Below, piece by piece: positions 85-5,296 of a DNA stretch of 64,000 nt. Source of the stretch: an uncultured Alphaproteobacteria bacterium. GTDB lineage: Bacteria > Pseudomonadota > Alphaproteobacteria > HIMB59 > GCA-002718135. The translations under genes were made by a program, and so were the position numbers. The notes under the pieces are model-generated. The model had not been told where the DNA came from. It did not search any database and was given only the letters and a program-made list of their open reading frames with translations. Within the stretch, counting starts at the first letter, position 1. Each line of letters opens with the position of its first letter. Location: NCBI GenBank assembly GCA_902560725.1, contig CACEMR010000003.1, positions 1 through 64,000 on the forward strand, given 5' to 3'.

Positions 85-1005
85 ATGAAATTCTTAAAAA
101 CTTTAATCGTTTCTTTTACTCTTTTATTTTCTGTTCAAGCTTTAGCGGATTTAATGTGCGTTATTACTCCTGCACATGACAATCCTTTCTTTAAAGCTGA
201 AGCAGATATTGCAGAGGAAACTGGAATATCTCTTGGATATGATGTTCTTTCATTAGATCACGGAGATGACGCAAATGTACAAGATCAACATGTAGATTCT
301 TGTATTGCTTCAGGCGCTAAGTTTATTATATTAGATAACGCTGGTGCTGATGCTTCTATCGCTGCTGTCCAAAAATCTAAAGATGCAGGAATCCCTGTTT
401 ATTTGATTGATAGAGAAATTAATGCTACTGGCATTGCATCTGCACAGCTAGTTGCTAACAACTATCAAGGCGCAGTTCTTGGTGGAGAAGCTTTTGTTGA
501 AGCTATGGGTGAGGAAGGTGAATTCATCGAACTTATTGGAAAAGAAACTGATACAAACGCAGGAATAAGATCAAGTGGTTATAACGATGTTATAGCTGAT
601 TATCCTGACATGATAAAAGTTGCAGCTCAATCTGCAAACTGGAGCCAAACAGAAGCTTTTGATATAATTGAACAATTAATTCAAGCTCATCCAGGTATCA
701 AAGGTGTAATTGCTGGAAATGATACAATGGCTTTAGGAGCTTCTGCTGCATTAAAGGCTGCTGGTATGAATGATGTTATAGTAGCTGGTTTTGATGGAAG
801 TAGAGAAGTTATGGATGCTATTGTTGCAGGTGATATAAATCATACTGTATTGCAACCTATTGCTAATTTCTCTGAAATGGCAGTAAGAATGGCACATGAT
901 GAAGTAACTACAGGTACTGCGCCTGCAGTTGAAAAAGCTTCAATTGATTGTATATTAGTTGATGCCTCAAATGTTGGTAATTGCGGTGTATTCCGTTGTA
1001 ACTAA
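85..1005 (+). CDS. Periplasmic sugar-binding protein of an ABC transporter (RbsB-like, peripla_BP_4)
   Basis: Signal peptide, RbsB-like motifs ([34 protein letters not shown]); AGGAGG-like RBS upstream. Confidence 0.9.
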
Positions 1006-1031
1006 TAATCAAGCTTAAACGAAACTCTTAT

Positions 1032-1061
1032 AAACAAGCGAATTTTATTCGCTTGTTTTTT
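1032..1061 (+). terminator. Rho-independent terminator after the sugar-binding protein gene
   Basis: AAACAAGCGAA-TTTTA-TTCGCTTGTTT: 11-bp perfect stem, then a T run. Confidence 0.85.
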
Positions 1062-1091
1062 AAATTTGGATATCTTAAGTTCTAATAATTA

Positions 1092-1919: not shown

Positions 1920-2848
1920 TTCAAAAAGCAAATTTAGAAATATTTGCAGAAACACTATTAGATTTAGCAAAAAAAGATAAAGAAATTGTTGTTGTTACAA
2001 GTGACTCAAGAGGGTCAGGTAAACTAACTAAATTTGGAAAAGAACTCCCTGATCAAATAATAGAAGTAGGCATTGCAGAACAAAATTTAGTTGGGATTTG
2101 TGCTGGTTTAGCAGCTGTTGGAAAAAAAGTTTTTGGAGTTTCGCCATCTAGTTTTTTAACAGCCAGATCATTGGAACAAATTAAGAATGATATAGCTTAC
2201 TCAAATCACCCAGTAACTCTTGTAGGCATAAGTGCTGGTGTAAGTTATGGACAATTAGGATCAACACATCACTCCATTCATGATTTAGCTGTTTTGAGAA
2301 CTATTAATAATATTAGTATAGTTGTTCCATCAGATAATTTTGAAACAAAAGAATCAATAAAAGAAGCTGTTAATTATAAAAGTCCATTATTTATTCGTTT
2401 TGGAAAAAAACCAATGCTTAAAATTCACAATGAAGATGATACTTTTAAAATTGGAAAGGGTGCAAAAATTATAGAGGGTAGTGATGTTATGTTTGTCACA
2501 ACCGGGGAAACTGCTCAGAGAGCTTTACTAGCTTCAGAAATTTTACATAAGAAAAATATTAGTTGCTCAATCATAAATATGCATACAATTAAGCCATTTG
2601 ATAGTGATCTTTTTTTAGACTGCTTATCAAAAGTTAAAGCAGTAATTACTGTTGAAGAACATAGCGAAAATGGTGGATTGGGTGAAAAATGTGCAAGTAT
2701 AATTTCTCAATCTAATATTAATATTGCATTTAAGATTGTAGGATTTCCTGATGAATATATGACTAATGGCTCTCAATCAGATGTCTTAGATCATTACAAT
2801 ATGTCTCCAGAAAAATTAGCTGAAATAGCTGACGACATTTTAAAGTAA
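1916..2848 (+). CDS. Transketolase C-terminal (pyrimidine-binding) subunit
   Basis: VGIAEQNLVGICAGLAAVGKKVF motif; 4-nt ATGA overlap with the upstream subunit. Confidence 0.88.
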   Translation: MIQKANLEIFAETLLDLAKKDKEIVVVTSDSRGSGKLTKFGKELPDQIIEVGIAEQNLVGICAGLAAVGKKVFGVSPSSFLTARSLEQIKNDIAYSNHPVTLVGISAGVSYGQLGSTHHSIHDLAVLRTINNISIVVPSDNFETKESIKEAVNYKSPLFIRFGKKPMLKIHNEDDTFKIGKGAKIIEGSDVMFVTTGETAQRALLASEILHKKNISCSIINMHTIKPFDSDLFLDCLSKVKAVITVEEHSENGGLGEKCASIISQSNINIAFKIVGFPDEYMTNGSQSDVLDHYNMSPEKLAEIADDILK

Positions 2849-4315
2849 ATGTATATTTCAATAGATCAAAGTACTTCATCAACAACTGTATTTTTGTATG
2901 ATAAGAATCTAAAGTTACTTGATAAATTTGCTAAACCTCACAAACAAATTCAAAAAGAATCAGGTTATGTTGAACACGATGCTAATGAAATTTTTAAAAA
3001 TATTCTTTTCCTAGTTAAAAAAATATCAAAAAAAATTAGATATAATAACAACTTATTTCTTAGTATTACTAATCAAAGAGAAACTTTTGTAATATTTGAT
3101 ACTATATCTGGGAAGCCTCTTCACAATGCTATTGTTTGGCAATGTAGAAGGGGTCAAAATGTATGTGATAAAATTAATAAATCAAAATTAAATAGAAATT
3201 TAATAAAAAAAAACACAGGTTTAACTCTTGATACTTATTTTCCAGCTCCTAAACTTGTACAATTATTAAATTTAAATAATAAGTTTAAAGAAAAATTGAA
3301 AAATGGTTCAGCTCTTTTTGGAACAATAGATACTTATCTAATATATCGCCTTACAAAACAAAAATCCTATACCACTGACTTTACAAATGCATCTAGAACT
3401 TTATTTTTTGATAATAAATCTCTTAACTGGAGCAAAAAGTTACTAAATTTATTTAATTTAAATTTAAAAATACTTCCAGAAGTAAAGGAAAGTTCATCAA
3501 TCTTTGGATACACAAATATTAACGGTATTTTAAACAAAAAGATTCCTATCTCAGGAGTTATGGGAGACTCTCAAGCTTCCATATTTGCTAATCAATGTTT
3601 TAATAGAGGAAATACAAAGATAACACTTGGAACAGGAGCTTCAATTTTAACAAACATTGGTCAGTCTTTTAAAAATCAAAAAAAAATTATTACTACGTTA
3701 TCGTATGTGCATAATAATAACCCATCATATTCATATGAATGTTTAATTAATTATGCTGGCGCTACCATTAGTTGGTTAAAAAATAACCTAAAAATCATAA
3801 ATTCAGCTGGAGAAACAAATCAAATTTTAAATAAAACTAAAGACTCACAAGGTGTTGTCTTTGTTCCTGCATTTGTTGGTTTAAGTTCACCGCATTGGAT
3901 TCCTGATAGTAAAGCAATGATATATGGATTAACACCATCTATTAATAAAAATCATATTATAAGAGCCGCTCTTGAGTCTATAGCATTTCAGATAAAAGAT
4001 TATTTGGATGATTTGAAAAAAAATAATAAAATCAACTATAATGATATCTATATTGATGGAGGTATCGTCTCAAATACATCATTTATGCAATTACTTTGTA
4101 ATACTTTACAAAAAAAAATTCATGTAACAAATTATCAAGATATGTCTTCATATGGAGCATTGATGATGGGATTGTTAGGAATGAATATTATAAGTAATTT
4201 TAATGAGATGAAAAAACTAAAACAAAAATACTTGGTTTTTTCTCCAGACAAAAATAAGAAAGTGATTGATAGCTATGCACATTGGCAATACATTTTAAAA
4301 AAATTTTATCTTTAA
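2849..4315 (+). CDS. FGGY-family carbohydrate kinase (glycerol kinase-like)
   Basis: IDQSTSSTTVFLYD, ITNQRETFVIFD, AIVWQCRR, TLGTGASI, FVPAFVGLSSPHW, FGGY C-terminal signature; starts directly after the transketolase stop. Confidence 0.85.
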   Translation: MYISIDQSTSSTTVFLYDKNLKLLDKFAKPHKQIQKESGYVEHDANEIFKNILFLVKKISKKIRYNNNLFLSITNQRETFVIFDTISGKPLHNAIVWQCRRGQNVCDKINKSKLNRNLIKKNTGLTLDTYFPAPKLVQLLNLNNKFKEKLKNGSALFGTIDTYLIYRLTKQKSYTTDFTNASRTLFFDNKSLNWSKKLLNLFNLNLKILPEVKESSSIFGYTNINGILNKKIPISGVMGDSQASIFANQCFNRGNTKITLGTGASILTNIGQSFKNQKKIITTLSYVHNNNPSYSYECLINYAGATISWLKNNLKIINSAGETNQILNKTKDSQGVVFVPAFVGLSSPHWIPDSKAMIYGLTPSINKNHIIRAALESIAFQIKDYLDDLKKNNKINYNDIYIDGGIVSNTSFMQLLCNTLQKKIHVTNYQDMSSYGALMMGLLGMNIISNFNEMKKLKQKYLVFSPDKNKKVIDSYAHWQYILKKFYL

Positions 4316-4318
4316 TTT

Positions 4319-5296
4319 TTATAAAAATTTATAGAGTGATTTCTGAGCAATTTTGAGGGCTTTCATTGCATCATGATTGGACTGTGCTTCTTGAAGAGCT
4401 TTAATATCCAAATCATCTAAAGCTTTTTCAATCGATTTTAAAAAATCTATTGCTTGGTTGGCCATCTGCACACTATCTTCTCTAAATGGAAATTGATCAA
4501 GTTGCCAAACTCCTTCCCAATTATTTTTTTTCAACACATAAAAAAATTCAAAGATCTCTATAGGATGTAAACTACCCGCAATTAAATCGTCATCCCAAGA
4601 TCTATAATTATCATTGACGTCCATTCCAAATAGTCGCCCATAATCAATTGCAAGTTGTGCTGAGTCAGCTGCTGACTCACCACCGTAAATAGCATGTCCA
4701 AAATCAAGAAGTATTCCAATATTAGGAAGACCAATTTTTTCTATTCCAAGTAATGTTCTAGAAACTGAGTCATAACTCATTTTGACTCTTGGCTCACGTG
4801 GTTTGTACTCAATTACAAATTTTAAGTCTGGGTTTTCACTAGCTAATCTTGCAACACCATCCATTGAATTTTTCCACAATGTTCCGTGGTCGACTTGGAA
4901 AGGATAATCCCAACCATCTTGTCCTGGCCAAAGTTTTACGTAAGCAGCATCAAAAAATCTAACAGCTTCGCAAGCTTCAGTAATTAATTCATGTGCTCTA
5001 TTACGAATACCTGGATCGGGGTTTGTGAAAGCACCTTTTCTGAATTCTTTTGTATAAATCTCTGGCGTAATACCAATCACGTCAAGATCAACCTCATGAA
5101 GTTCATTTTTTATTTGTTGATTTGTAAAAGAACCTCCAAAATACGGAAAATTTATATCAACAACAGAAAGATCTTTAACCTGACCGGCTAATTTAATAGC
5201 GTCTAGAACACTTCTTGGCTCTCCATAACCCTCAGTATTATATCTATCTACATATGTAGCAAAATGCCAAATTCCTGCTCCAAATTTTTGTGCCAT
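4319..5296 (-). CDS. Sugar isomerase/epimerase (xylose isomerase-like TIM barrel)
   Basis: [42 protein letters not shown] endonuclease 2/sugar isomerase fold. Confidence 0.8.

Follow-up and report, generated by a model that had tools for sequence, protein, structure and literature searches.

The transketolase variant of D-apiose catabolism employs the isomerase ApsI, the kinase AplK, and the split transketolase AptA/AptB. It reportedly leads from apiose via apulose and apulose 4-phosphate to xylulose 5-phosphate and dihydroxyacetone phosphate (DHAP). Systems of this type (MetaCyc PWY-8089) are found in Pectobacterium and Escherichia coli ST131 and, by synteny observed here, in Rhizobium, Devosia, and Actinomycetota. 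In E. coli, growth with D-apiose as the sole carbon source accompanies the aplK-aptA-aptB cluster (PMC13001218); strains with the cluster grew and K-12 did not, which is a correlation of cluster and growth. Here, a gene cluster at positions 85 to 5296 of a 64,000-nucleotide stretch (the window) from an uncultured alphaproteobacterium of the HIMB59 group is analyzed. It is very likely that this cluster is a cassette for D-apiose uptake and catabolism of the transketolase type.

Gene Content of the Cluster

The first gene (85..1005, forward strand) encodes SBP1, an RbsB-family periplasmic sugar-binding protein of 306 aa (Peripla_BP_4) with an N-terminal hydrophobic signal-like stretch, probably a binder of D-apiose. 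Two halves of a split transketolase follow on the same strand: TktN, the AptA-like half that binds thiamine diphosphate (ThDP) (1092..1919; 275 aa; Transketolase_N), and TktC, the AptB-like half with the pyrimidine-binding and C-terminal domains (1916..2848; 310 aa; Transket_pyr and Transketolase_C). The next gene on this strand (2849..4315; 488 aa; FGGY_N and FGGY_C) encodes an FGGY kinase, derived from the glycerol-kinase branch of its family, which probably acts as a D-apulose kinase in the role of AplK. The last gene, on the reverse strand (4319..5296), encodes an ApsI-like TIM-barrel protein (325 aa; AP_endonuc_2), a probable D-apiose isomerase. Positions, sizes, and order of the five genes are as in the initial annotation, and domain searches returned the same protein types. 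The 4-nt overlap between TktN and TktC is real (TktC starts at 1916 and TktN ends at 1919), the kinase gene starts at the base right after the TktC stop (2848 to 2849), and the isomerase gene is convergent with the kinase gene across a 3-nt gap.

The first base of the window is also base 1 of its contig (C3), in an assembly of 1.43 Mb and 47 contigs, and the operon is therefore cut at its 5' side. The block of TktN, TktC, kinase, and isomerase is present in 13 other genomes of the genus, in one or two of which it is cut by contig ends. Thus, the grouping of these genes is not due to chance.

Gene identities, linkage, phylogeny, and motif residues were computed, and from these we infer the substrates and the order of reactions. 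SBP1, with a permease and an ATPase encoded beyond the contig end, would import D-apiose. The isomerase would convert D-apiose to D-apulose, and the FGGY kinase would convert apulose to apulose 4-phosphate. The split transketolase would then transfer a two-carbon unit of apulose 4-phosphate to glyceraldehyde 3-phosphate, releasing xylulose 5-phosphate and DHAP. This type of catabolism had been proposed in the initial annotation, and it is supported by the isomerase, the binding protein, the gene linkage, and the motif residues of the kinase and transketolase.

Isomerase and Transport Proteins

The isomerase aligns over its full length to PDB 3ktc (E 7e-132), which is presumably the Pectobacterium D-apiose isomerase ApsI. 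Its identity to its counterparts in Rhizobium SL42 and CC-CFT758 is 79%. In both, the isomerase gene is located directly before genes for aptA-like and aptB-like proteins and an FGGY kinase; the SL42 gene also diverges from an operon for a binding protein, DUF2291, an ATPase, and a permease. Length, full-length match to the presumed ApsI structure, and identity to the apt-linked Rhizobium isomerase all agree with an ApsI.

The linkage was counted within 10 kb of the genes for the 80 best isomerase relatives kept from a scan of species genomes. These relatives belong to Rhizobiales, Devosia, Actinomycetota, and single-cell genomes of the group that includes the window. Both TktN and TktC were found beside 68 of the 80 and an FGGY kinase beside 67, and eight also have an apiosidase-like gene in the vicinity.

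The best PDB matches of SBP1 were 5ibq and 4ry0 (E 8e-110), with 61% identity to 5ibq over 287 residues. Presumably, 5ibq is a Rhizobium etli binding protein with D-apiose, and 4ry0 is the same protein with D-ribose. The stretches that match the sugar contacts of RbsB, as assigned from knowledge of RbsB, are identical in SBP1 and 5ibq. SBP1 is also 58% identical to the binding protein encoded beside apsI in Rhizobium SL42. Along the coding strand of two close relatives (G064 and G139), the genes run from DUF2291 through two-domain ATPase, permease, SBP1, TktN, and TktC to the kinase, with the isomerase gene convergent. The upstream permease and ATPase of these relatives are 57% and 47% identical to their counterparts in the SL42 operon, and the DUF2291 protein matches its Pfam family with 144 bits. 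By synteny, the genes for DUF2291, ATPase, and permease of the SBP1 system should lie just beyond the contig end. The identity to 5ibq and these upstream genes of the relatives are features of the apiose-type ATP-binding cassette (ABC) transporter, and the window itself is cut at this point.

An alternative ABC system replaces the SBP1 system before or after the same kinase-transketolase module at L040:1660-4618, and similarly in L041-L047 and L052-L056. As a guess, the alternative system before TktN in the genus relatives is of the fructose type.

Kinase and Transketolase

The kinase scored 463 bits against the GlpK model (TIGR01311; cut-off 590) and 183 bits against the XylB model (TIGR01312; cut-off 380). 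E. coli AplK also falls below the cut-off of the GlpK model (495 bits), and the same holds for the kinases of Rhizobium, Streptomyces, and Listeria. That of Monoglobus is under the cut-off of TIGR01311 and over that of the broader GlpK model NF000756. Clustering of the kinase near GlpK had been named beforehand as a sign that would refute the apiose pathway, but this sign is uninformative, since E. coli AplK, too, scores as a GlpK relative below the cut-off.

The motifs of the glycerol pocket, GDQ(Q)A and GTGCF, are present in all 21 GlpKs examined. The window kinase has GDSQA and GTGAS at these positions. In kinases linked to split transketolases, including E. coli AplK, the first motif is GDSHA, GDSQA, or GDAQA (ADSEA in Listeria and GDSHG in Monoglobus), and the second is GTG-S, GTGAS, GTGAC, or GTGFN (GTGCS in Listeria). 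The window kinase thus shares the changes from GlpK to AplK with E. coli AplK. The combination of GDSxA/GDAxA with the loss of GTGCF is a sequence criterion that tells these kinases apart from the glycerol kinases whose annotation they carry. Neither GlpK nor XylB was retained as the identity of the kinase, given the scores, the replaced glycerol-contact motifs, and a true XylB (517 bits against the cut-off of 380) at 53776-55266 of the window. Apulose is glycerol with a glycolyl group at C2, and a kinase from the glycerol-kinase side with an altered pocket is therefore plausible for apulose.

TktN retains the ThDP motif GDGEL...DRN and the conserved His positions, and TktC retains the catalytic Glu motif GIAEQN. 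TktC has SAGVSYGQLGSTHH where ordinary transketolase has HDSIGLGEDGPTH; E. coli AptB, with NAGASYGPLASTHH, and the other members are similar. The leucine at the key position of this motif is also seen in two unlinked alphaproteobacterial proteins. Two adjacent halves, complete ThDP motifs, and a TktC motif common to E. coli AptB are what a split AptA/AptB enzyme has. An ordinary full-length transketolase is encoded on contig C4 of the same genome.

Lineage of the Kinase and Transketolase

TktN is 53% identical to the TktN of an apiosidase operon in Listeria and 44% identical to E. coli AptA. In both the TktN+TktC tree and the kinase tree, sequences from the window's order clustered with those from Listeria and Monoglobus (97 and 96 in the Shimodaira-Hasegawa-like approximate likelihood ratio test, SH-aLRT), apart from the enzymes adjoining the same isomerase in Rhizobiales and Actinomycetota. 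Forcing the order together with the ApsI-linked set was rejected by the approximately unbiased (AU) test, with p = 0.009 for the transketolase without E. coli and 0.017 for the kinase with E. coli. The transketolase value weakens to 0.073 once E. coli is included. A putative direct relationship between the kinase and true GlpK was not rejected (AU 0.086). These are quick trees in which branches are long and the composition is biased; the placement is therefore only probable. It is probable that the cassette is a mosaic, with the kinase and transketolase of a Bacillota-type lineage and the isomerase of a Rhizobiales type.

In Listeria and Monoglobus, adjoining genes encode a FucI-like isomerase and a protein that matches the Pfam domain Apiosidase, PF13204 (313 and 60 bits, respectively). 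Thus, the kinase-transketolase lineage is independently tied to apiose. The operons at L060:5296-13086 and L064:4579-10810 encode a FucI-like isomerase, a split transketolase, a "glycerol kinase", and an apiosidase-like protein. The kinases annotated as glycerol kinase in these operons are likely to be misannotated apulose kinases.

The initial annotation had matched the kinase and both transketolase halves with AplK, AptA, and AptB. The D-apiose pathway type stands, but their orthology to the enzymes beside the same isomerase in Rhizobiales does not, as they group with the Bacillota lineage with apiosidase operons. The kinase has the gene position and the motif changes of AplK, but its identity to such kinases is only 28-31% and the tree places it apart from the AplK clade (AU 0.017); simple orthology with AplK was rejected, on a tree that is subject to the long branches and biased composition mentioned above.

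Exchange of the Isomerase across the Order

In a survey of 150 genomes of the order, 34 have the ApsI-like isomerase and 56 have TktC, and every genome with this isomerase also has TktC (hypergeometric p = 4e-19; the association p-values of this survey ignore relatedness). In 17 TktC genomes without the ApsI-like isomerase, which belong to the second family of the order, a 467-aa FucI/SftI-type protein is encoded beside the same genes and replaces the TIM-barrel isomerase. Examples are L054:11637-13040 (forward strand), L050:7382-8791 (reverse strand), and L055:11303-12703, and the replacement is also carried by G002, a genome in a single contig of 1,410,127 bases. The two isomerases never occur together (0 of 51 genomes; Fisher p = 4e-8). 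The remaining five TktC genomes have neither isomerase and are apparently cut at contig ends. The tree requires two changes of isomerase.

The nearest NCBIfam model of the FucI-family protein is the sulfoquinovose isomerase SftI, with 97 bits against a cut-off of 700. It is 26% identical to the FucI-like isomerases of Listeria and Monoglobus; common descent within the superfamily is clear, and orthology is not. A structure search found no solved structure for this protein. Whichever isomerase is present, the motif residues of the kinase do not differ, as in the closely related genomic pair of L050 (FucI) and L051 (ApsI). The exchange of isomerases beside a constant module predicts a second, unrelated apiose isomerase. 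Such an exchange is a clean natural experiment for function assignment, and, if the prediction is true, the 17 genomes point to a testable enzyme. We consider the chances about even that D-apiose is used throughout this order of abundant marine bacterioplankton via a separate kinase-transketolase lineage, and that in part of the order, probably including strain HIMB59, D-apiose is isomerized by a second, unrelated enzyme of the FucI/SftI family, the type of isomerase that the Bacillota apiosidase operons have as well.

Alternative Functions

It is very improbable that the cluster serves D-xylose or another common pentose, with the isomerase producing xylulose, the FGGY kinase being a xylulokinase, and the split transketolase being an accessory enzyme of the pentose phosphate pathway. 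A true XylA at 11403-12716 (692 bits, cut-off 459) and the distant similarity of the isomerase to xylose isomerases are in its favor, but the true XylB is encoded elsewhere, the cluster kinase is far under the XylB cut-off, the full-length transketolase is on C4, and the isomerase groups with the 79% identical apt-linked proteins rather than with XylA. Xylose use was set aside, as both XylA and XylB proper lie elsewhere in the window. A role of the kinase as glycerol or dihydroxyacetone kinase, in a cluster for triose or tetrulose compounds (glycerol, dihydroxyacetone, or erythrulose), is likewise very improbable. In its favor, the best PDB and NCBIfam matches of the kinase are glycerol kinases. 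The adjoining isomerase, however, marks an aldose, and the kinase has neither of the two motifs conserved in GlpKs, with replacements common to E. coli AplK. A separate GlpK above the cut-off is encoded on contig C12, and glycerol use was rejected on this gene and the kinase motifs. Since the genome has its own GlpK, XylA, and XylB elsewhere, glycerol and xylose are poor rivals of apiose.

It is unlikely that the kinase and transketolase of the FucI-type genomes serve another ketose, for example a sulfosugar or deoxy sugar, with apiose being only one of several sugars. The proximity to SftI and the two transporter types preceding the module are consistent with this, and split transketolases take part in sulfoquinovose breakdown. 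However, the sulfosugar transketolase route is not known to have a kinase. The unchanged kinase motifs, the mutual exclusion of the two isomerases, and the apiosidase adjoining the Bacillota FucI-like isomerases also argue against it. Several observations weigh against the D-apiose cassette itself. The kinase shares just 28% of its residues with E. coli AplK and 31% with its Rhizobium counterpart. In nine of the 13 genus relatives, the block before TktN is not SBP1 and, where readable, is a different ABC system; SBP1 is therefore not obligatory. A search for an apiosidase in the genome, which is 90% complete, found none, and free apiose released by others would therefore be the substrate. In addition, the substrate assignments are all predictions from sequence.

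Neighbouring Regions

A second cluster at 5510-12716 encodes a rhizopine-like binding protein, a permease with about 170 extra aa, a single-domain ATPase, a PhyH dioxygenase, a GFO/IDH/MocA oxidoreductase, a glyoxalase-like protein, and XylA. Membership of its transport genes in the apiose system is uncertain. SBP2 (5510..6418, forward strand) is divergent from the isomerase gene, and its nearest NCBIfam model is the rhizopine binding protein (240 bits, cut-off 420); its gene adjoins the isomerase gene in most genomes of both families of the order. The permease PERM2 (6470..8062, forward strand), which is conserved across the order, has its extra segment of ~170 residues inside BPD_transp_2, and ATP2 (8062..8844, forward strand) is the single-domain ABC ATPase. 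In relatives, an IolD-type enzyme (636 bits, cut-off 715) is encoded upstream of the cassette (L040:22-1575 and L037:17508-17987). The cassette may be located in or beside an inositol catabolism region. Further downstream, 47531-55266 encodes an L-arabinonate-dehydratase-like protein, a GlcD-like oxidase, a sulfolactate/malate-type dehydrogenase, and the true XylB.

Possible Apiose Sources and Comparison with Known Systems

Apiose is a component of the pectin of the seagrass Zostera (PMC7644952), and it is also described from metabolites of plants and green algae and from a few bacteria, one of them marine (PMC5607165). Seagrass or plants are a possible source. No paper that connects apiose with marine bacterioplankton turned up in the literature search, and papers on the AEGEAN-169/HIMB59 group (PMC10308909 and PMC10734472) do not mention it. 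The pathway type is already known; the host group is unexpected, with no earlier description of the pathway found for it, and the lineage of the kinase and transketolase differs from those described so far. If the assignment is true, open-ocean cells obtain carbon from a branched pentose whose known occurrence is mainly in land plants and seagrass.

The cassette resembles the PWY-8089 systems in its isomerase family, its binding protein family (with DUF2291, ATPase, and permease in relatives), its split transketolase, its FGGY kinase, and the motif residues. It differs from them in that its kinase (28-31% identity), TktN (42-44%), and TktC (37-40%) are of another lineage, the host belongs to a streamlined marine bacterioplankton clade, and no regulator is seen beside the cluster among the annotated neighbours. 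A RubisCO-like protein and apionate enzymes were not seen among these neighbours either, and no genome-wide search was made for them. The window kinase and transketolase are most closely related to those of the Listeria and Monoglobus operons; unlike the window, these operons have another isomerase, a phosphotransferase system or other transport, and an apiosidase. The E. coli apiose cluster without apsI (PMC13001218) is similar in AplK, AptA, AptB, and transport by a binding protein, DUF2291, and ATPase, and it shows that the isomerase step is replaceable. For E. coli, the paper suggests that two oxidoreductases take over from ApsI, whereas the replacement in the window's order is a FucI-family protein.

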